A stretch of DNA of 51,511 bases from Deltaproteobacteria bacterium (GTDB lineage Bacteria; Desulfobacterota; GWC2-55-46; DRQE01). The position numbers and the translations under genes are program-made. The stretch spans positions 1-51,511 of the forward strand of contig WGEY01000038.1 in NCBI GenBank assembly GCA_015492495.1, written 5' to 3'. This document shows, one piece after another, positions 27,398 to 42,428 of the stretch (positions are counted from its first letter, which is position 1; each line of letters starts with the position of its first letter). A model generated the notes under the pieces. It saw only the letters and a program-made list of their open reading frames with translations, had not been told where the DNA came from and did not search any database.

Positions 27398-29626
27398 ATG
27401 GCACAGGTCCTGAAACATACGCAGCGCTCCGAGCAGAAAAGACGCCAGCGCGAGTTCTATATCATCCTGGCCATAGTGCCGGTCATAGTACTTCTCACCT
27501 ATATCGAGTCCCACATATCCATCATAAGCGGCGACATACCCGTTGCCACCAACATCTTCGTTCTCGGCCTGATCAATATCAACATTATACTCCTGGGGCT
27601 TCTTATATTCCTGGTCTTGAGAAATGCCGTGAAGCTCTTCTTTGAAAGCCGCAGGAAGCTTATGGGCTCCAGGCTCAGGACAAAGCTCATAGCAGCCTTC
27701 GTCGCCCTTACCATCGTCCCTACCTTTCTCCTTTTTTTCGTTGTAATAGGGTTCATAAACAAGAGCATCGACGGCTGGTTCGACATCAAGGTCGAGGATT
27801 CGCTCAAGGAGTCGCTCGAGCTTGCACAAAACTACTACAGGGATACCACGGACAAGATGCTCAACGGTGCCTGGAGGCTGTCCAGCCTCCTGAAACAGAA
27901 AGGGTTTGAGCCGGGCGGGGACGGTCTGCGGGAGTTCCTGGAAACGAAGATGCTGGAGAATGACTTCTCAACCGTTGAGATATACACCGACAAGGGTGAG
28001 AGGGTAGCCTATGCAATAGCAAAGAACGTCAACAGGAACATGGTTCCGGATATCGACATAAAGGAGGTCGCAAAGGCCATAGGTGAAGGCGCAAGGAGCT
28101 TCGTGCAGACGTTGCAGGTCGGGGACGTTGTGAGGGGGATCGCACCGTTGCTTTCGCCTGTGGATGGAAGCGTAACCGGTGCGGTGGTTGTAAGCTACTA
28201 CGTCCCGCGCAGCCTTGTTTCCAAGATGAAGGAGATCTCTGCTGCCTTCGAGGGGTACAAGCAGCTTAAGATACTCAAGAACCCGGTCAAGGCCAGCTAC
28301 TTTACGATCCTTCTGATAATCACCCTGCTCATAGTATTCTTCGCCATATGGATAGGCCAGTATCTCGCCAAGGCCATAACCGTGCCCATATTCGAGCTTG
28401 CCGAAGGCACGCACGCCGTTGCAAGCGGCAACCTCGACTACAGGATAAACGTTGACTCCAACGACGAGATAGGGTTGCTGGTCAAGTCCTTCAACCGGAT
28501 GACAGAGGACCTCAAGGCCGGAAAGTCCGGGCTCGAGCAGGCCAACCGCACCCTTCGAGCCACGAACGCCGAGCTTGAAAGCCGCAGACGCTACATAGAG
28601 ATAGTGTTGGGAAACATTCCGGCAGGTGTCGTGTCCATCGACAAGGACGGCAAGATCACGTCCATAAACAGGGTGGCCGCTGAGATATTCGGTGTTGAGG
28701 AGTCCAACGTGGTTGACAGGGACTACAAGGAGGTCCTGCGTTCGGAGGACAGGGCTTTCCTGGACGACATGATAAAGGAGATGAACGACCTTTCAGCCGA
28801 AACGCTCGAAAGGCAGATGAAGGTCAAGCTCAGGGACAGGATCATGACCGTGCTGGTCAACCTGAATGCGTTGAGGGATGAAGACGGCGAATACCTCGGC
28901 ATGGTGGCGGTGCTCGATGACCTTACGCATCTTCTTAAGACACAGAGGATGCTGGCCTGGAAGGAGGTGGCAAGGAGGATCGCCCACGAGATAAAGAACC
29001 CGCTTACGCCCATAAAGCTTTCGGCCCAGAGGCTGAGGAAGAAGTATATGGACCGCTTCCCTGATGATGACAAGGTATTCGATGAGTGTACGAGGACCAT
29101 CGTGAGGCAGGTCGAGGAGCTTAAGATACTCGTAAACGAGTTTTCAAGCTTCGCAAGGATGCCGGCGGCCGACCCCACCCCCAACGATCTGAACGACATA
29201 GTTCTTGAGACCATAGAGCTGTACAAGACCGGGCACAAGGGGATAAACTTCCAGGCTGTGACTGACCCGAATCTTCCGATACTCAAGATCGACAGGGACC
29301 AGATAAAGAGGGTGCTCATAAACCTCCTCGACAATTCCATCGACTCCATGGACGGGGAGGGCTACGTGAGGGTCGAGACCGGCTATGACGCGGAGTTCAA
29401 CCTTGCGCGCCTCGTTGTTGCGGACACCGGCTGCGGCATTCCGCCGGAGGTCAAGGCCAGGCTCTTTGAGCCGTATTTTTCCACCAAGAAGTCCGGAACG
29501 GGTCTCGGGCTCTCGATAGTGAACAACATAATCGCCGATCACAACGGCTACATAAGGGTCAAGGACAACGAACCAAGGGGCACCAAGTTTGTGATCGAGC
29601 TTCCAGTGACTGTGGGTGTGGCATGA
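27398..29626 (+). CDS. Membrane sensor histidine kinase, NtrY-like
   Basis: This 742-residue kinase has several N-terminal transmembrane segments (about residues 21-36, 53-74 and 97-120), an extracytoplasmic sensing region (120-298), another helix (300-320), HAMP (320-375), PAS (395-510), and a HisKA domain with the phospho-accepting H530 in RRIAHEIKNPLTPIKLSA. The ATPase domain follows with N646 (LLDNSID), DTGCG (676-680) and GTGLGLS (700-706). The layout is that of NtrY. It overlaps the response regulator gene by ATGA, so the two form a coupled pair. The signal is unknown. The family partner often controls nitrogen or redox genes; here the setting next to cytochrome maturation genes may hint at respiration. 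Confidence 0.9.
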   Translation: MAQVLKHTQRSEQKRRQREFYIILAIVPVIVLLTYIESHISIISGDIPVATNIFVLGLININIILLGLLIFLVLRNAVKLFFESRRKLMGSRLRTKLIAAFVALTIVPTFLLFFVVIGFINKSIDGWFDIKVEDSLKESLELAQNYYRDTTDKMLNGAWRLSSLLKQKGFEPGGDGLREFLETKMLENDFSTVEIYTDKGERVAYAIAKNVNRNMVPDIDIKEVAKAIGEGARSFVQTLQVGDVVRGIAPLLSPVDGSVTGAVVVSYYVPRSLVSKMKEISAAFEGYKQLKILKNPVKASYFTILLIITLLIVFFAIWIGQYLAKAITVPIFELAEGTHAVASGNLDYRINVDSNDEIGLLVKSFNRMTEDLKAGKSGLEQANRTLRATNAELESRRRYIEIVLGNIPAGVVSIDKDGKITSINRVAAEIFGVEESNVVDRDYKEVLRSEDRAFLDDMIKEMNDLSAETLERQMKVKLRDRIMTVLVNLNALRDEDGEYLGMVAVLDDLTHLLKTQRMLAWKEVARRIAHEIKNPLTPIKLSAQRLRKKYMDRFPDDDKVFDECTRTIVRQVEELKILVNEFSSFARMPAADPTPNDLNDIVLETIELYKTGHKGINFQAVTDPNLPILKIDRDQIKRVLINLLDNSIDSMDGEGYVRVETGYDAEFNLARLVVADTGCGIPPEVKARLFEPYFSTKKSGTGLGLSIVNNIIADHNGYIRVKDNEPRGTKFVIELPVTVGVA

Positions 29627-30969
29627 AGACGATAATGATCGTTGACGACGAGAAGAATATCAGGTGCTCGCTCGAGGGCGTTCTCGCCGATGAGGGGTAT
29701 GAGGTCACCTCGGCCGGAAGCGCCGAAGAGGCGCTGTCCAAGATAGAGGGTAGCGTTCCGGACCTCGTCCTCCTCGACATATGGCTGCCCGGCATGGACG
29801 GGGTGGATGCCTTGAGGGAGCTTAAGAACCGGTACCCGGACCTTCCTGTGATCATGATATCCGGACACGGGACCGTTGAGACGGCGGTCAAGGCGACAAA
29901 GCTCGGCGCCTACGACTTCCTGGAAAAACCCCTTTCGCTGGAGAAGGTCGTACTTACGGTGGAGCATGCGCTCGAGCAGAAAAGGCTTCGTGAGGAGAAC
30001 CTCGAGCTCATGGAGCGTACACGCAGGGAGTACGTGATAATAGGGCGCTCCGCCGTGATGGAGGAGCTCAAGAGGGATATACTGCGTGTTGCTCCGACCA
30101 ACTCCTGGGTGCTTATTACAGGTGAGAACGGCACCGGCAAGGAGCTCGTGGCCAGAAACATACACCTTAACTCGAACCGCTCCGGCAAGCCCTTTGTCGC
30201 CGTCAACTGCGCGGCGATTCCAGAGGAGCTCATCGAAAGCGAGCTCTTCGGGCATGAAAAGGGTGCCTTCACCGGCGCCGTCTCCTCTAAGAAGGGCAAG
30301 TTCGACATGGCCGACAAGGGTACGCTCTTCCTGGACGAGATAGCGGACATGAGCCTGAAGACGCAGGCCAAGATACTGAGGATACTCGAGGAAGAGAGCT
30401 TCGAGAGGGTGGGGGGTACGAAGAGGATAAGCGTCGACGTCAGGGTCCTTGCCGCCACCAACAAGGACCTCAAGGAGGAGATAACCAAGGGAAACTTCCG
30501 CGAGGACCTCTACTACAGACTGAACGTGATACCATTTCGGGTGCCTTCGTTGAGGGAACGGATAGAGGACATCCCCCTTTTTGTTGACCACTTTCTCACC
30601 GAGTTTTCTTCCGAGGTCGGAAAGGAGGTGCCCAGGGTGACGCCAGAGGCGATGGAGGTCTTCATGAGGTATGACTGGCCCGGTAACGTAAGGGAGCTCA
30701 GAAACCTCATGGAGAGGCTCGTCATAATGACCCCTTCGGATGTCATAACGCCGGATGACATCCCGTCCTACATCAAGGGCGGTCCGGCTGTCCAGTCCAG
30801 GGACATCTTCAGCGGGACCCTCAAGGAGGCCCGGCGCGAATTCGAGAGGGAGTACATCGTAAAGAAGCTCGAGGAGTTCGACGGTAACATCGCCAAGACG
30901 GCTGAGTCAATAGGCATAGAGCGCAGCCACCTCTACAGGAAGATAAAGTCCTACGGCATACGGGTATGA
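29623..30969 (+). CDS. Sigma54-dependent response regulator, NtrX-like
   Basis: The protein is 448 residues. The receiver domain carries the phospho-acceptor D52 (VLLDIWLPGMDG). The AAA+ domain has Walker A GENGTGKE (167-174), the sigma54-contacting loop GAFTGA (214-219) and Walker B LFLDE (235-239). The C-terminal Fis-type helix-turn-helix is NIAKTAESIGIERSHLYRKI. It activates promoters read by RNA polymerase with sigma54 when phosphorylated, most likely by the kinase whose gene it overlaps by four bases. No sigma54 promoter (TGGCAC-N5-TTGC) was found by eye in the window, so target genes are unknown. Confidence 0.93.
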   Translation: MKTIMIVDDEKNIRCSLEGVLADEGYEVTSAGSAEEALSKIEGSVPDLVLLDIWLPGMDGVDALRELKNRYPDLPVIMISGHGTVETAVKATKLGAYDFLEKPLSLEKVVLTVEHALEQKRLREENLELMERTRREYVIIGRSAVMEELKRDILRVAPTNSWVLITGENGTGKELVARNIHLNSNRSGKPFVAVNCAAIPEELIESELFGHEKGAFTGAVSSKKGKFDMADKGTLFLDEIADMSLKTQAKILRILEEESFERVGGTKRISVDVRVLAATNKDLKEEITKGNFREDLYYRLNVIPFRVPSLRERIEDIPLFVDHFLTEFSSEVGKEVPRVTPEAMEVFMRYDWPGNVRELRNLMERLVIMTPSDVITPDDIPSYIKGGPAVQSRDIFSGTLKEARREFEREYIVKKLEEFDGNIAKTAESIGIERSHLYRKIKSYGIRV

Positions 30970-31111: not shown

Positions 31112-31456
31112 TTGGCCGGTGGTCAGGAGGATTACGGTGTGCCGCCGGAGCCTTCAATGCCGTACCGGCAGCCCGGTAAAATTGACAAATACCAATGCTT
31201 GTGGTAACTAATAATTTTGATCGTCGACCCGCGAGGCCACCTGTAGGCCAGCAGAACGTACCTCGGTTCAGCGAAGGGTGGTTGCGGGGTCTGTTGACGC
31301 GTCGAACCGGATGCGCGGTCTTGTGGACTGCGGAATGATTATATACAAGGGAGTGCTTGGCGAGCGAACATAACCGAGACTTCATTGCACCACCTCCGGT
31401 GGTCACCAGCGGCCTGCCGCAGGAGATCTTCAACCCTTCAGCCGAGGCATGATGTC
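31112..31456. other. Noncoding stretch before second sigma54 activator
   Basis: No gene is supported. It holds a further repeat core, copy 4 (GGCCTGCCGCAGG then ATCTTCAAC, 31411-31433), close to the next gene's start, and a small hairpin CACC/GGTG near 31390. No -35/-10 pair stands out. Confidence 0.4.
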
Positions 31457-32872
31457 ATGAGGAGACCGATACTTCTCATTGTTGATGATGAGCCCGCCGT
31501 CAGGGAGACCCTTGAGATAATACTCGGGGATTACTATGAGACGGTTTCCGTCTCGAACGGGATCGAGGCGTTGGAGGTAGTGAAATCCATGCCTATAGAT
31601 CTCGTTCTGATGGACATAAACCTGCCTCACATGGACGGCTTCAAGTCCCTCCAGAAGATAAAGGAGTTCGATGACGAGATAGGGGTGGTGGTGGTCTCAG
31701 CCATCGACAGCGCCCAGAAGGCGGTCCAGGCACTTAACATGGGCGCCTACGATTACATCACAAAGCCCTTTGAGACCGAAGACCTGCTTTCGACCATCAA
31801 GCGTTACACCGACAGGTTGAACCTTAAAAGAGAGGTGGTCTTTTTAAGGGAGGAGCTGCAGAACCGGCTCGGCTACGGCGATATCATAAGTAAGACGGCG
31901 AGCATGCAGAAGGTCTTCGACCTCGTTAAGAGGGTGAGCAGGACGTCGGCCAGTGTGCTCATAACCGGAGAGAGCGGGACAGGCAAGGAGCTCATCGCCA
32001 GGGCCATACAGGAACTGAGCGACAGGAGAGACAGCCCCTTTGTGGCCGTAAACTGCGGGGCCGTGCCTTCCGAGCTAATGGAGAGCGAGCTCTTCGGTTA
32101 TGAGAAGGGGGCCTTTACCGGGGCTCACGCAACTAAGATAGGCAAGTTCGAGTACGCCGACGGCGGCACGATCTTCCTTGACGAGGTCGCCACCCTGCCC
32201 ATGCATCTCCAGGCCAAGTTCTTGAGGGTCCTTCAGGAGAAGTCCTTTGAGCGTGTCGGCGGGAACAAGGAGATAAAGGTCGATATAAGGGTGCTTGCGG
32301 CGACAAACATCAACCTGGAGGAAGCCGTAAAGAACGGCACCTTCCGCGAAGACCTTTACTACAGGCTCAAGGTCGTGCCCATAGAACTCCCACCGCTTAG
32401 GGAGAGGAAAGAGGACATACCGCTTCTCGTCGAGTACTTTCTGGAAAGGCATTGCAAGAAGTGCAACAAAAACATAAAGGGGATCTCCAGATCAGCGATA
32501 GATGCGCTGGTGGCCTACCCGTGGCCGGGCAATGTAAGGGAGCTCGAAAACCTCATCGAGAGGCTCGTGGTCCTTGCAAAGGACGGTTCCGAGATAACCT
32601 ACGAGGACATTCCGGTCGAAATAGTCTGTCAGGATTCGGATTTTCTGCGTTCCGCCTACGAGATAGAGGACTATCGCAAGGCCTGCAAGACCTTTGAGAG
32701 GCATTACATCATAAGTGTGCTCAACAAGACGAACTGGAACCGTTCGGAGGCCGCCGAGATCATGAAGATACACCGCAACACGCTTCTGTACAAGATGAAG
32801 GAGCTCGGCATAGAGGAGTTGCCTCAGGCACAGCGTCCGAAGCTGAGGATGTGGGCTTTACAAGGCCATTGA
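31457..32872 (+). CDS. Second sigma54-dependent response regulator (NtrC family)
   Basis: The protein is 472 residues. The receiver has D53 (VLMDINLPHMDG). The AAA+ domain has GESGTGKE (171-178), GAFTGA (218-223) and TIFLDEV, and the C-terminal Fis-type helix-turn-helix is NRSEAAEIMKIHRNTLLYKM. The ATG at 31457 gives the usual receiver start MRRPILLIVDDEP; GAGG lies nine bases upstream. The longer open frame from 31385 is not needed. No kinase gene is next to it. It could be a second output of the NtrY-like kinase 1.8 kb upstream or answer to a kinase elsewhere. Its C-terminal tail (ELPQAQRPKLRMWALQGH) extends past the usual end. Confidence 0.92.
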   Translation: MRRPILLIVDDEPAVRETLEIILGDYYETVSVSNGIEALEVVKSMPIDLVLMDINLPHMDGFKSLQKIKEFDDEIGVVVVSAIDSAQKAVQALNMGAYDYITKPFETEDLLSTIKRYTDRLNLKREVVFLREELQNRLGYGDIISKTASMQKVFDLVKRVSRTSASVLITGESGTGKELIARAIQELSDRRDSPFVAVNCGAVPSELMESELFGYEKGAFTGAHATKIGKFEYADGGTIFLDEVATLPMHLQAKFLRVLQEKSFERVGGNKEIKVDIRVLAATNINLEEAVKNGTFREDLYYRLKVVPIELPPLRERKEDIPLLVEYFLERHCKKCNKNIKGISRSAIDALVAYPWPGNVRELENLIERLVVLAKDGSEITYEDIPVEIVCQDSDFLRSAYEIEDYRKACKTFERHYIISVLNKTNWNRSEAAEIMKIHRNTLLYKMKELGIEELPQAQRPKLRMWALQGH

Positions 32873-35337: not shown

Positions 35338-36369
35338 ATGGATGAGAGGGACATAGCACCTGTGAGGCTGGAAGAAGAGGAGGGCTTCGAAGCGAGCCTC
35401 AGGCCCAGGAGCATCGATGAGTACATAGGACAGGAGAAGGTCAAGGACAACCTGAAGATATTCATCGAGGCGGCAAGGGCGAGGGGCGAGGCCCTCGATC
35501 ACGTGCTCTTCTACGGCCCTCCGGGGCTGGGCAAGACGACCCTTGCGCACATAATCTCCCACGAGCTCGGAAGCGACATAAGGACAACGTCCGGTCCGGC
35601 GATAGAGAAGGCCGGCGACCTTGCCGCGATACTGACCAACCTCAAGCGGCGCGACGTCCTCTTCATAGACGAGATCCACCGCATGCCGAACGTGGTGGAA
35701 GAGATCCTCTACCCGGCGATGGAGGACTACCAGATAGACATAATAATAGGGCAGGGTCCTTCGGCGCGCTCCATAAAGCTCGACATCCCCCGTTTTACGC
35801 TCATCGGCGCCACAACGAGGGCAGGGCTCCTGACATCGCCTTTGAGGGACAGGTTCGGCGTCATAGTGAGGCTGGACTTCTACTCGCCCGATGAGCTGAA
35901 GACGATAATCGTCCGTTCAAGCTCGATCCTCGGCATAGAGATCACACCGGAAGGCGCCTATGAGATAGCGAGGCGCTCAAGGGGTACGCCCAGGATCGCG
36001 AACAGGCTCCTGAGGAGGGTGAGGGATTACGCCGAGGTCAAGCACGACGGCGTCATTACGGGAACCGTGGCCGAAAGCGCCCTCCAGATGCTGGAGATAG
36101 ATTCCCGCGGCTTCGACAAGATGGACAGAAGGATACTGCTCACCATAATAGACAAGTTCAGCGGCGGCCCGGTGGGCATAGAGTCGCTTGCAGCCGCACT
36201 CCACGAAGACAAGGACGCGCTTGAAGACCTCTACGAACCGTATCTCATACAGGAGGGTTTCCTCAAGAGGACCTCGAGGGGAAGGGTTGCCACCGAGATC
36301 GCATATAAGCATGTGGGAAGGGTCTTTGCGGGCCCGGGTGACAACAACAGCCAGGGCAGGCTCTTGTAG
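35338..36369 (+). CDS. ruvB: Holliday junction branch migration ATPase RuvB
   Basis: RuvB is the hexameric AAA+ motor that drives branch migration with RuvA. The 343-residue protein has Walker [11 protein letters not shown], Walker [10 protein letters not shown], the sensor-1 region GATTRAGLL, the arginine finger in PLRDRFG, and a C-terminal winged helix ([13 protein letters not shown]). The N-terminal [12 protein letters not shown] is typical. There is a gap of about 150 bases after ruvA with no feature recognised. queH follows 24 bases downstream. Confidence 0.97.
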
Positions 36370-36392: not shown

Positions 36393-36938
36393 GTGGAGCG
36401 TATACTAGTACACATGTGTTGCGGTCCTTGTTCCATCTATCCCCTTAGGAACATACTGGGCAGAGACATCGAGGTACACGGCTTCTTCTACAACCCCAAT
36501 ATCCATCCGTTCGAGGAGTTCAAGAGGCGTATAGAAGCGGCGAAAAAACTCGCCGGTTTGATGGAGATAGACGCGATCTTCCATGAAGACTACGAACCGC
36601 GCCCCTTTTTCTGCGGGTTGCCAGGGATCGACAAGAAGCGGCTTCCGAAGGAAGAAAGGTGCGCCCACTGTTATGCGCTGAGGCTTGACAGGACCGCCCG
36701 TACCGCAAGGGACCATGGATTCGACTTCTTCACATCCTCGCTCCTTTACAGCAAGTTCCAGGACCACGAAGGTATAATATCGCTCGGGCTTGACATGGAG
36801 CAGAAATACCGTATACCCTTTTATTACGAGGACTTCAGGGAGGGGTGGAAAGAAGGTATACAGGAGTCGCGCAGGATGGGCCTGTACAGGCAGAAGTACT
36901 GCGGGTGCATCTTCAGCAGGATCGAAAGAGGGCTCTGA
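36393..36938 (+). CDS. queH: Epoxyqueuosine reductase QueH
   Basis: QueH (formerly DUF208) reduces epoxyqueuosine in tRNA to queuosine, the last step of that pathway, and is unrelated to QueG. The 181-residue protein shows the key cysteine pairs: MCCGPCSIYPL near the N-terminus, ERCAHCYALR in the middle and KYCGCIFS at the C-terminus, the ligands of the Fe-S and metal site. FTSSLLYSKFQDHE is a further family motif. The start is a GTG at 36393 with GAGGAG seven bases upstream. It lies 24 bases after ruvB and about 54 bases before the MAT gene. Confidence 0.92.
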   Translation: MERILVHMCCGPCSIYPLRNILGRDIEVHGFFYNPNIHPFEEFKRRIEAAKKLAGLMEIDAIFHEDYEPRPFFCGLPGIDKKRLPKEERCAHCYALRLDRTARTARDHGFDFFTSSLLYSKFQDHEGIISLGLDMEQKYRIPFYYEDFREGWKEGIQESRRMGLYRQKYCGCIFSRIERGL

Positions 36939-36992
36939 GAATGCACGTCGGGTGCGTATAATTGAAATCTCCTTGCCTTGAGGTGCCGCCGC

Positions 36993-38198
36993 GTGGAAAA
37001 ACTTTCCGTTGAATTCATCAGGAACATCCCCATACATGAGCAGGCCGTAGAGATCGTGGAGAGAAAGGGTACAGGGCACCCGGACTACATCTGCGACGCG
37101 GTTATGGAGAGCATATCCGTTACGCTCAGCAGGGTATACATGAAGGAGTTCGGCGACGTCCTCCATCACAATATCGACAAGGGGCTTCTCGTGGCCGGGG
37201 AGGTCGAGAAGCGGTTCGGAGGCGGCAGGGTCGTAACCCCCATGGAACTTGTCATAGGCGACAGGGCGACATTCAAGGCGGGAAGAAAGAAGATACCGGT
37301 GGCCGAGATAGCCGATGAAGCCATCAGACGCTGGGTCGGAGAGAACCTGAGGAGCGTTGATCCCGAAAGGCACATAAGGACGAGGGTGGTGCTCAAGCCG
37401 GGCTCGGTAGAGCTTGCCGATATCTTCTCTGAAAGGGGAAGGGTTAAAAAGGCCAATGACACGTCGGCGGCGGTGGGTTATGCGCCGTTCACACCTACTG
37501 AGAAGGCCGTGTACGAGTGCGAGAGGTTCCTCAACTCACCGGCATTCAAGACCACCTTTCCCGAGAGCGGTGAGGATGTCAAGGTCATGGGCTTCAGGGA
37601 CCGCGACGAGCTGGATCTGACCGTGGCCATGCCGCTTCTTGCGGGCATGGTGAGGAGCGAGAAGGAGTACTTCAACAGAAAGAAGGAGATAGTCGAGGCG
37701 CTGAAGAAGTTCATGCGGGGGTTCCCGTTCAGGAAGGTGACGGTAAACTACAACACGCTCGATGAGCCGGGAAAGGGGATAAGCGGCGTCTATCTCTCGC
37801 TCCTCGGTACATCCGCCGAGGACGCCGACTCCGGACAGGTGGGCCGCGGCAACAGGGTCAACGGGGTCATATCCCTGAACAGGCCCATGTCCACCGAGGC
37901 CGCCGCCGGAAAGAACCCGACGAGCCACGTGGGCAAGGTCTACAATGTTCTTGCACACCGCATGGCACGGGAGATATACGAGAGGAACAGCGGGATCGCC
38001 GAGGTCTACGTGTGGCTCGTAAGCCAGATAGGTCAGCCCATAGACGATCCTAAAAAGATCTCGGTACATATCGTGCCTGCCGGGCCCCTGAGCTACAACG
38101 ACATAAAGAAGGATGTCCAGGCGATCGTGTGCGAGTTCCTTTCCGGGATAGAACTCTTCACCGGTGAGCTTACACGCGGAGAATATCCTGTATGTTAG
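36993..38198 (+). CDS. Archaeal-type S-adenosylmethionine synthetase
   Basis: Methionine adenosyltransferase makes SAM from methionine and ATP. The sequence is of the archaeal family, not bacterial MetK: EIVERKGTGHPDYICD, LHHNIDKGLLVAGE, VNYNTLDEPGKGISGVYLS, GTSAEDADSGQVGRGN and AAAGKNPTSHVGKVYN are its landmarks. Bacterial MetK motifs (GHPDKxxD with GAGDQG) are absent. At about 401 residues it has the archaeal length. The start is taken as a GTG at 36993 with GAGGTG about eight bases upstream; the TTG at 36978 would add five residues. Whether the genome also has bacterial MetK cannot be seen. Transfer from archaea or an ancient retention are both possible; codon use looks like the neighbours, so any transfer is old. 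Confidence 0.92.
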   Translation: MEKLSVEFIRNIPIHEQAVEIVERKGTGHPDYICDAVMESISVTLSRVYMKEFGDVLHHNIDKGLLVAGEVEKRFGGGRVVTPMELVIGDRATFKAGRKKIPVAEIADEAIRRWVGENLRSVDPERHIRTRVVLKPGSVELADIFSERGRVKKANDTSAAVGYAPFTPTEKAVYECERFLNSPAFKTTFPESGEDVKVMGFRDRDELDLTVAMPLLAGMVRSEKEYFNRKKEIVEALKKFMRGFPFRKVTVNYNTLDEPGKGISGVYLSLLGTSAEDADSGQVGRGNRVNGVISLNRPMSTEAAAGKNPTSHVGKVYNVLAHRMAREIYERNSGIAEVYVWLVSQIGQPIDDPKKISVHIVPAGPLSYNDIKKDVQAIVCEFLSGIELFTGELTRGEYPVC

Positions 38199-38243: not shown

Positions 38244-38618
38244 ATGAGTGAGAAGAGCAATGAGCGGTGCATGAAGCTCAAAAAGAACCTGCTCGAGAAG
38301 AAGAGGGAGTTGTGGATAAAGGTGAGGGACGAGTACTTCAGGAAGCTCGGCAAGGAGTATAACGACCAGTTCTCCAACCCGCAGGACATGGAGGATCTTT
38401 CGCTCGTAGACCTTATTGAGGACACCGGGTTGAAGATCGCTGATATACACAAGGAGCAGCTTGTTCAGATGGAAGACGCGTTGAGGAAGCTGGAGGAGGG
38501 TACATACGGTATCTGTGACGAGTGCGGCGTGGAGATAGACGAGGAGAGGCTCGAGGTCATGCCCTTCACAACCCTGTGTGTGAGGTGCCAGGAGAAGAGA
38601 GAAGGCATGCAGGGTTGA
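38244..38618 (+). CDS. DksA/TraR-type zinc-finger protein
   Basis: The 124-residue protein has an N-terminal coiled coil (KLKKNLLEKKRELWIKVRDE and on) and a C-terminal four-cysteine zinc finger, CDECGVEIDEERLEVMPFTTLCVRCQE. DksA-family proteins enter the secondary channel of RNA polymerase and change promoter response to ppGpp. The coiled coil here is shorter than in E. coli DksA, and the acidic tip residues cannot be assigned with certainty, so it may be a DksA-like protein with another role. GGGAGG lies about eight bases before the ATG at 38244. Presence of a Ppx/GppA protein in the window gives a loose ppGpp link. Confidence 0.85.
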   Translation: MSEKSNERCMKLKKNLLEKKRELWIKVRDEYFRKLGKEYNDQFSNPQDMEDLSLVDLIEDTGLKIADIHKEQLVQMEDALRKLEEGTYGICDECGVEIDEERLEVMPFTTLCVRCQEKREGMQG

Positions 38619-38692
38619 TGTGCCGATCCGCTGTAAGGAAGTATCTTCTACATTCGCCCGCGTTCCCCGTAGCAAGCTGTTGGAGAACGCCT

Positions 38693-38717
38693 GCCTGTCA
38701 AGGGACGGCAGACAGGC
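38693..38717 (+). promoter_or_regulatory. Hairpin before the radical SAM start codon
   Basis: GCCTGTC (38693-38699) and GACAGGC (38711-38717) are perfect 7-base arms around an 11-base loop. The weak ribosome binding site (AGG at 38714-38716) lies in the 3' arm, eight bases before the ATG at 38725, so folding could limit translation. Confidence 0.35.
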
Positions 38718-38724
38718 GCTTGTT

Positions 38725-39642
38725 ATGCGTTTTCAACCGTCGTACATAAGGCTTTATGAGACAGGAGAGCTCGCCGGGAGGATAGAGTCGCTCGACCGTA
38801 TCCTCAAGGAGTGCGTCATATGTCCGCGCAGGTGCAGAGTCGACCGTACGGTCTGCGAGAGGGGGGTGTGCGGTGTCGGCACGCTGCCCGTGGTGTCGAG
38901 CCACAACCCCCACTTCGGCGAGGAGCCGCCCCTTGTCGGCTGGGGAGGGAGCGGCACCATATTCATGACCTACTGCAACCTTAAGTGCGTCTTCTGCCAG
39001 AACTACGACATCAGCCACCTCGGGTACGGCGAAGAGGTGTCCTGCGGAGAGCTGGCGGCGATGATGCTCGAGCTGCAGGAGAGCGGTTGCCACAACATAA
39101 ACTTCGTCACACCCACCCACCAGATAGCCCAGATAGTCAGGAGCCTTCCCCTGGCCGTAGAAAAGGGGCTTAAGCTCCCTCTCGTGTACAACTGCGGGGG
39201 TTACGAGGCCGTGGAGACAATAAGGTTCCTTGACGGGATATTCGACATATACATGCCGGACATCAAGTACGGCGACGACGAGGCGGCCGCGCGGTATTCC
39301 GGGGCAAAGGACTACGTGGAGCGGTGCCGGGAGTCGGTGAAGGAGATGCACAGGCAGGTGGGCGACCTTGTGGTGGACAGCCGCGGGATCGCACAGAGGG
39401 GGCTCATCATAAGGCACCTCGTCATGCCGGACGGCGTTGCAGGGACGCGGGAGGTCATGCGCTTTATAGCCAGGGAGATTTCGAGAAACTCGTATGTAAA
39501 CATCATGGATCAGTACAGGCCCTGTTTCAAGGCCTTTGACCATCCCCCACTCGACAGGCGCATTACACCGGAGGAGTTTGACGAGGCCCTGAGCATCGCC
39601 CGGGAGGAAGGCATAACGAGGCTGGCCGGTATTACGGAGTAA
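38725..39642 (+). CDS. Radical SAM protein, PflA-like (PflX/AmmeMemo type)
   Basis: The protein is about 305 residues. The radical SAM cluster motif is YCNLKCVFCQNYDIS (CxxxCxxC). Upstream lies a second cysteine set, CVICPRRCRVDRTV and ERGVCGVG, typical of the pyruvate formate-lyase-activating-enzyme-like PflX and AmmeMemoRadiSam groups. The ATG at 38725 gives the usual start MRFQPSYIRLYETGEL; the open frame from 38620 adds sequence without family character. The substrate is unknown. Its neighbours (DksA-like gene, Nudix gene) do not define a pathway. Confidence 0.85.
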   Translation: MRFQPSYIRLYETGELAGRIESLDRILKECVICPRRCRVDRTVCERGVCGVGTLPVVSSHNPHFGEEPPLVGWGGSGTIFMTYCNLKCVFCQNYDISHLGYGEEVSCGELAAMMLELQESGCHNINFVTPTHQIAQIVRSLPLAVEKGLKLPLVYNCGGYEAVETIRFLDGIFDIYMPDIKYGDDEAAARYSGAKDYVERCRESVKEMHRQVGDLVVDSRGIAQRGLIIRHLVMPDGVAGTREVMRFIAREISRNSYVNIMDQYRPCFKAFDHPPLDRRITPEEFDEALSIAREEGITRLAGITE

Positions 39643-40226: not shown

Positions 40227-42428
40227 ATGGAGATTACAGAAGAGATAGTTGGTGAGCACGGGCTTACCAAGGACGAGTATGCAAGGATCATAGAATGTCT
40301 CGGAAGGGAACCGAATATAGTTGAACTCGGTATATTCTCCGTCATGTGGAGCGAGCACTGCTCCTACAAGTCTTCGAGAAGGCATCTAAAGAAGTTTCCC
40401 ACCTCCGCCCCCCATGTGCTCCAGGGTCCCGGAGAGAACGCCGGTATCGTGGACATAGGGGACGGGCTTGCGGTGGCCTTCAAGATGGAAAGCCACAATC
40501 ACCCCTCCTTCATCGAGCCCTATCAGGGCGCTGCGACCGGGGTCGGCGGCATCCTGAGGGATATCTTCACCATGGGGGCAAGGCCCGTGGCCTCGCTCAA
40601 TTCCCTGCGCTTCGGCTCTCCGGAAAACCCGAGGACCCGTTACCTGCTCGAAGGTGTCGTCGAGGGTATCGCCGACTACGGCAACTGCATTGGTGTGCCC
40701 ACGGTCGGAGGCGAGGTGTACTTCCACGAATGCTACGACGGTAACTGCCTTGTGAACGCGATGACCGTGGGGATAGTGAAGAGGGGCAGGATATTCAGGG
40801 GAAGCGCCTCCGGTGCCGGAAACCCCGTCATATACGTGGGGGCGCGTACCGGCAGGGACGGCATTCACGGCGCCACCATGGCAAGCGATGTCTTCGGAGA
40901 GGGGGGCGAGGAGAGGAGGCCCACGGTGCAGGTCGGCGATCCCTTTACCGAGAAGTTGCTGCTCGAGGCGTGTCTGGAGGTCTTCAGGACCGACTATGTC
41001 GTGGGCATACAGGATATGGGTGCAGCCGGGCTTACCTCGTCGAGCGTAGAGATGGCCTCGCGCGCCGGGACCGGTATTGAGATAGACTGCGCCCTCGTGC
41101 CCCGGAGGGAAGAGGGCATGACACCCTATGAGCTCATGCTCTCCGAGTCACAGGAGAGGATGCTGCTTGTGGTCAGGAGGGGCTGTGAGGACGCGGTGAT
41201 GGAGATATTCAGGAAGTGGGACCTCGAGGCATGCGTCATAGGCAGGGTTACCGACACCGGAAGGCTCAGGGTCATGGACGGCACCGCCGTGGCGGCGGAT
41301 ATCCCGATAGCGGCCCTCACCGACGAGGCCCCTCAGTACGAGAGGCCCTCAAAGAGGCCGGGCTGGCAGGATGAGGTCACCCGGCTTGAGATCGGATCTG
41401 TTTCCGTGCCTGACGACCTTAACGGTGTGCTCCTTAGGCTTTTGTCGTCGCTCAACCTCTGCGACAGGGGGTGGATATACACCCAGTACGATCACATGGT
41501 CAGGACCGATACGGTCGTGCCGCCCGGCTCGGATTCGGCGGTCATAAGGATAAAGGGAACCACGAAGGCGCTTGCGATGACCGTGGACTGCAACTCGCGC
41601 TACTGCTTTCTTGATCCCTTCACCGGGGGTGCGATCGCCGTGGCCGAGGCCGCACGCAACGTCACCGTGTCAGGCGCCAGACCCCTGGCCCTTACGGATT
41701 GCCTCAACTTCGGGAACCCCGAAAGGCCCGAGGTGATGTGGCAGTTCGAGAACTCGATCCTCGGCATGAGAGAGGCATGCCTCAAACTCGCTATCCCGGT
41801 TGTGAGCGGCAACGTGAGCTTCTACAACGAGACCTCGGGCAATGCCGTGTACCCCACACCGACCGTGGGCATGGTGGGGCTCCTCGATGACATAGAAAAG
41901 CGTACCACCCAGTGGTTCAAGGACGAAGGTGATCTCATAGCCTTGCTCGGAGCAACCCTCGAAGAGATAGGCGGCAGCGAATACCTCAAGGTCGTACATT
42001 CCCTCGACAGGGGACTGCCGCCGCGGATAGACCTTGACACCGAGAAAAAGGTGCAGCATGCTTGTAGGGATGCCATAGCGGGTGGTATAATCAAGTCAGC
42101 CCACGATGTGTCCGAGGGAGGCCTGGCGGTCGCGCTTGCAGAGGCATGCCTCTCTCCTTCCACCCCTGTAGGGGCGACGGTGGAGCTGCAAGGTGGAGAC
42201 ATCAGGGAAGACGCCCTTCTATTCGGTGAGAGCCAGTCGAGGATCATAATAAGCCTTGAAGAAAAAGACCTTGAGAGGATGAAGGGGATCGCGGCTGCAA
42301 ACGGCGCGCCCTTCACCGTGATAGGCCGTGTTGGCGGCGGTTCGCTCAGGATCAAGGGCCTCATAGATCTCAAGGTAAAGGAGCTTCATGAGGCGCGCTC
42401 CGGCGTCATCGAAGACTTCGTCAAATAA
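40227..42428 (+). CDS. purL: FGAM synthase subunit PurL (small type)
   Basis: PurL converts formylglycinamide ribonucleotide to the amidine with ATP and ammonia. At 733 residues it is the small type that needs PurQ (glutaminase) and PurS, neither of which lies in the window. Signatures are [16 protein letters not shown] near the start, [20 protein letters not shown], and repeated AIR-synthase-like halves, the second with [23 protein letters not shown] lies just before the ATG. purF follows 27 bases downstream, so the two are one unit. Confidence 0.96.

Follow-up and report, generated by a model that had tools for sequence, protein, structure and literature searches.

An archaeal-type S-adenosylmethionine synthetase gene kept beside metK in a bacterial class

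Results

The window, the whole stretch of 51,511 nucleotides analysed here, is contig C38 of a 2.26-Mb draft genome of 112 contigs that is rated 100% complete. It carries an open reading frame of 401 codons with a GTG start, which encodes an archaeal-type methionine adenosyltransferase (MAT) and is flanked by queH and a DksA-like gene (table 1), as the first-pass annotation had proposed and as profile matches to both neighbours bear out. Upstream of the yebC-ruv block, two further genes of the window look like AAA+-domain response regulators of the NtrC type.

Table 1. Features of the window and of related loci
Feature	Position	Strand	Basis or remark
Two genes read as NtrC-type response regulators	29623-30969; 31385-32872		window
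ruvB	35338..36369	+	member of the conserved order
queH, epoxyqueuosine reductase	36393..36938	+	Pfam PF02677; upstream neighbour of MAT
GAGGTG, likely ribosome-binding site	36980..36985	+	sequence; 7 nt spacing to the GTG at 36993
Archaeal-type MAT (S-adenosylmethionine synthase)	36993..38198	+	PF01941/NF003363; profile matches, solved relatives
DksA/TraR-type C4 zinc-finger protein	38247..38618	+	profile searches, PF01258; downstream neighbour of MAT
Radical SAM protein	38620..39642	+	PF04055; present here in some relatives, absent in others
purL	40227..42428	+	near downstream end of conserved block
metK, complete, about 387 aa	L035 12072-13235	-	contig C9 of the window genome
MAT-PCMT fusion	L102 7428-9347 (G202:C17:29430-31346); G380:C199:10342-12258		80% identical between the two
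Small CxxC protein	L007 5438-5971; L012 5435-5971; L101 8525-9076
Split MAT	L096 G228:C1:958257-959308; L097 G188:C16:46680-47856

The window protein covers the full PF01941 (AdoMet_Synthase) profile at 531.6 bits (E 1.5e-159; cut-off 27 bits), and the Pfam search returned this family alone, with none of the S-AdoMet_synt N, M and C domains of MetK. At 610.1 bits it also exceeds the curated equivalog cut-off of 557 of NCBIfam NF003363 (PRK04439.1-2, methionine adenosyltransferase), of which it is a member without any difference that we could find; a Methylomirabilis protein passes the same cut-off, whereas the Pyrococcus furiosus MAT belongs to a different model, NF003364. Bacterial MetK (PF00438/PF02772/PF02773) catalyzes the same reaction but is of another sequence family; commonly, S-adenosylmethionine (SAM) synthesis is ascribed to MetK in bacteria and to the PF01941 MAT in archaea. 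The solved relatives of the window protein are archaeal MATs (4l4q, 6s81, 4hpv, and 7p83; phmmer E 1e-88 to 1e-97), which align to it across the full length. We take 6s81 to be the P. furiosus, 4hpv the Sulfolobus solfataricus and 7p82/7p83 the Methanocaldococcus jannaschii enzyme. Entry 4l4q is the Thermococcus kodakarensis MAT (PMC3853416), and 6s83 that of P. furiosus (PMC8727953). The GC content of the gene (0.572) and its GC3 (0.751) both lie inside the range of the neighboring genes. An archaeal-type SAM synthetase in a bacterial gene cluster, lacking MetK motifs and with native-looking codon use, is thus confirmed.

Across families of the window's class, most genomes whose contigs show the region share the order yebC-ruvC-ruvA-ruvB-queH-MAT-dksA-(radical SAM)-nudix-purL-purF; two short loci (G058 and G051) show no queH beside MAT. 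The block also occurs free of MAT; the next gene after queH is then dksA, at a distance of about 100 bases (G010), purL (G001, G003, and G005), or nudix (G014, G017, and G021). At least three changes of state are needed to explain which genomes on a flanking-protein tree have MAT and which lack it; the absences in G036, G053, and G055, drafts with contigs that break or rearrange there, were left out of this count. The simplest account is a single old gain followed by several losses.

A search of the window genome for the MetK C-terminal domain found one gene, the complete metK of contig C9, next to what is presumably an S-adenosylhomocysteinase gene, recognised by its sequence; the other genes around metK look ordinarily bacterial. 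Hence, the placement of an archaeal-type MAT in a bacterial operon holds, but its suggested part as a stand-in for MetK does not: because a normal MetK is encoded in the same genome, the archaeal-type protein is an extra enzyme and no substitute. Nearly all carriers in the class have the pair. Among the 59 nearest genomes, the MetK C-terminal domain was found in 42 of the 45 MAT carriers and a MetK fragment in a 43rd, while two class drafts with the archaeal-type gene (G025 and G047) gave no MetK match; in G016, a genome of one contig, both genes lie on one chromosome. MetK likewise accompanies all carriers (16/16) in the phylum sample.

Two further observations concern copies that are missing or broken. 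In G013 (locus L093, contig C22), rated 100% complete, neither the archaeal-type MAT nor MetK was found; the gene after queH reads like a GspE/PilB-type ATPase, and the absence of metK is probably an assembly gap. One genus includes a species with an intact MAT (G265) and two in which the gene is broken into a pair of frames; one of these two has its genome in a single contig, and its MAT has an internal TAG. All three species encode MetK, and the split frames fit a dispensable second copy.

PF01941 was detected in 49 of 63 genomes of the window's class, in 20 of 79 of the Candidatus Methylomirabilis phylum, and in 16 of 247 of an even sample of the window's own phylum, 8 of the 16 being from the window's class. 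Archaeal-type MATs also occur on bacterial plasmids (Methylocystis, Phenylobacterium, Cupriavidus, Bosea, Burkholderia, Streptomyces, and others). Carriage by phages was considered and rejected, since no relatives were found in viral contigs or phage records. In a tree of 81 proteins the window MAT clusters with its own family, inside its own order and class. The class MATs, together with those of Methylomirabilota and one other member of the window's phylum, form a clade of 64 rows, all of them bacterial, with support 100/99; archaeal MATs, thinly sampled by four solved structures and two haloarchaeal plasmid copies, fall outside it. The nearest sequences are bacterial, a point that the first-pass annotation had left to a tree, and by tree and taxon counts the protein is an ordinary member of a wide bacterial group, which lowers its novelty and leaves its identification unaffected. 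A Geobacter-labelled metagenome-assembled genome and SKS4, both from elsewhere, nest among the class MATs, which points to transfers out of the class.

SAM-contact residues reported for P. furiosus MAT are H30, H59, N61, L142, D198, Y268, and D280, as well as D141 (PMC8727953). Compared with the archaeal enzymes (6s81, 4l4q, 4hpv, and 7p82/7p83), to which it is similar over its whole length, the window protein has the same contacts except one: it keeps the first seven, as does every class protein (42/42), and has Glu in place of D141. The replacement is shared by 41 of 42 class proteins, by 19 of 19 from Methylomirabilota, and by nearly the entire bacterial clade; Asp is retained in all archaeal rows (6/6). 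The Asp-to-Glu change characterises the bacterial subfamily NF003363; PF01941 is not defined by Asp at this position. Where archaeal MATs have GTSAExGDDGxxGRGN, the bacterial clade shows a motif of its own, GTSAEDADSGQVGRGN; in the window protein two residues are inserted ahead of the strand leading into GTSAE. In T. kodakarensis the counterpart of D141, Asp144, contacts the adenine amino group (PMC3853416). Because this adenine-contacting position is Glu, kinetics or nucleotide choice may differ, and the substitution and clade motif together could change either. The gene is under purifying selection, with dN/dS among close relatives of 0.07-0.14, near the value of purL in the same genomes. 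SAM riboswitch control of MAT or metK was rejected, as Rfam gave no match upstream of either in the regions scanned (the window and the first 20 kb of the metK contig).

In Methylomirabilota, MAT neighbors Usp, CBS, Hsp20, and P-type ATPase genes, and plasmid copies lie beside ppsA, acetate kinase, or copper-resistance and multicopper-oxidase genes. A small CxxC protein, weakly NMD3-like, recurs directly next to MAT both in G113 and in Methylomirabilota. Two species of genus g149, which belongs to the window's phylum, carry a fusion of about 640 aa in which one open frame links a PF01941 MAT to PCMT. PCMT (protein-L-isoaspartate methyltransferase) is a SAM-dependent protein-repair methyltransferase. 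In Bradyrhizobium diazoefficiens, mat (bll7989) belongs to the FixK2 regulon (PMC9104804); its ABC-transporter and HlyD neighbors match those of the Bosea plasmid copy, and for this reason bll7989 is probably a MAT of the archaeal-type, PF01941 family. The low-oxygen lxa locus of Burkholderia cenocepacia was tried as a published home of MAT and set aside, since the main-text descriptions name no SAM synthetase.

Discussion

We propose that the window gene encodes a functional auxiliary SAM synthetase beside MetK, gained at or before the class ancestor and vertically inherited with few losses, a reading to which, on sequence data, we give a probability of about 85%. As a predicted second synthetase of the archaeal (PF01941) family, the protein would convert methionine and ATP to SAM as its archaeal relatives do, with an active site expected at the dimer interface, and would supplement the resident MetK without replacing it. 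Its gene would have entered at or before the class ancestor from the bacterial clade that includes Methylomirabilota, settled between queH and dksA of the ruvABC-queH-pur block, and passed vertically thereafter. Catalytic activity is probable on the conserved residues of the protein. The queH, dksA-like, and radical-SAM neighbors are no proof of a functional link to MAT.

Other histories fit less well. The best-known members of the family are archaeal (PMC8727953; PMC3853416), and a recent passage from an archaeon into the window genome could be imagined; yet gene order is constant across the class, GC and GC3 are native, and the nearest relatives are all bacterial with the archaeal sequences outside their clade, so that we reject recent acquisition as very improbable. 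With few archaeal rows in the tree, an ancient transfer from archaea to bacteria may still lie behind the bacterial clade. The draft state of the genome, in 112 contigs, might suggest an archaeal contig misplaced in a bacterial bin, but MAT stands within a block of bacterial genes, its contig is 51.5 kb long, and the same arrangement recurs in many independent genomes, the single-contig G016 among them, leaving such an artefact a negligible chance. That the archaeal-type enzyme became the sole SAM synthetase of the window organism is ruled out by its intact metK. The two class drafts without a MetK match might speak for such replacement; however, one (G025) is in 90 contigs and has genus-mates with metK, the other (G047) is only 79% complete, and every carrier in the phylum sample has MetK, so the idea is hardly credible.

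What the enzyme makes is a separate matter. It might mainly use another nucleotide or a methionine analogue and add nothing to the ordinary SAM pool, given that M. jannaschii MAT takes several NTPs (PMC8727953) and that the adenine-contacting Asp is Glu across the bacterial clade; against this, the remaining listed contacts are all conserved, Asp to Glu is a mild change, and the nearby genes suggest no other product, and we regard it as improbable. Somewhat less remote, though still unlikely, is that the bacterial-clade MAT, with its D141E and its own loop motif, is a synthetase specialised for a dedicated SAM pool and kept beside MetK, for instance for protein-repair methylation under low oxygen or stress, a reading at which FixK2 control in Bradyrhizobium and the MAT-PCMT fusion of g149 hint.

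As to why an auxiliary synthetase is retained, it may be kept for conditions in which MetK alone falls short (low oxygen, stress, stationary phase). The stress-gene and plasmid contexts, FixK2 control, and the MAT-PCMT fusion suggest, by analogy, that the second enzyme provides additional SAM when cells are stressed or short of oxygen. This condition-specific role is borrowed from distant relatives, because the MAT of the window's class sits in a housekeeping block and in no stress island.

Possession of both types has a precedent: a passage in Rodionov et al. (2004, PMC545781) describes a classical MetK with an additional archaeal-type SAM synthase in Geobacter, like the window genome a delta-proteobacterial case with both. 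The MAT of the window's class differs from that case, as described there, in belonging to another lineage and in being fixed in the ruvABC-queH-dksA-pur block. Thus, the pair, in what that account gives of it, and the curated NCBI model were already known; added here are the fixed place of MAT, the pattern of its presence and loss within one class, and a clade-specific residue change. An entire bacterial class has retained both synthetase types, with the archaeal-type gene at a fixed chromosomal place; this copy has been lost repeatedly, MetK hardly ever. The question of what a second, very distant SAM synthetase does that MetK does not is thereby made testable.
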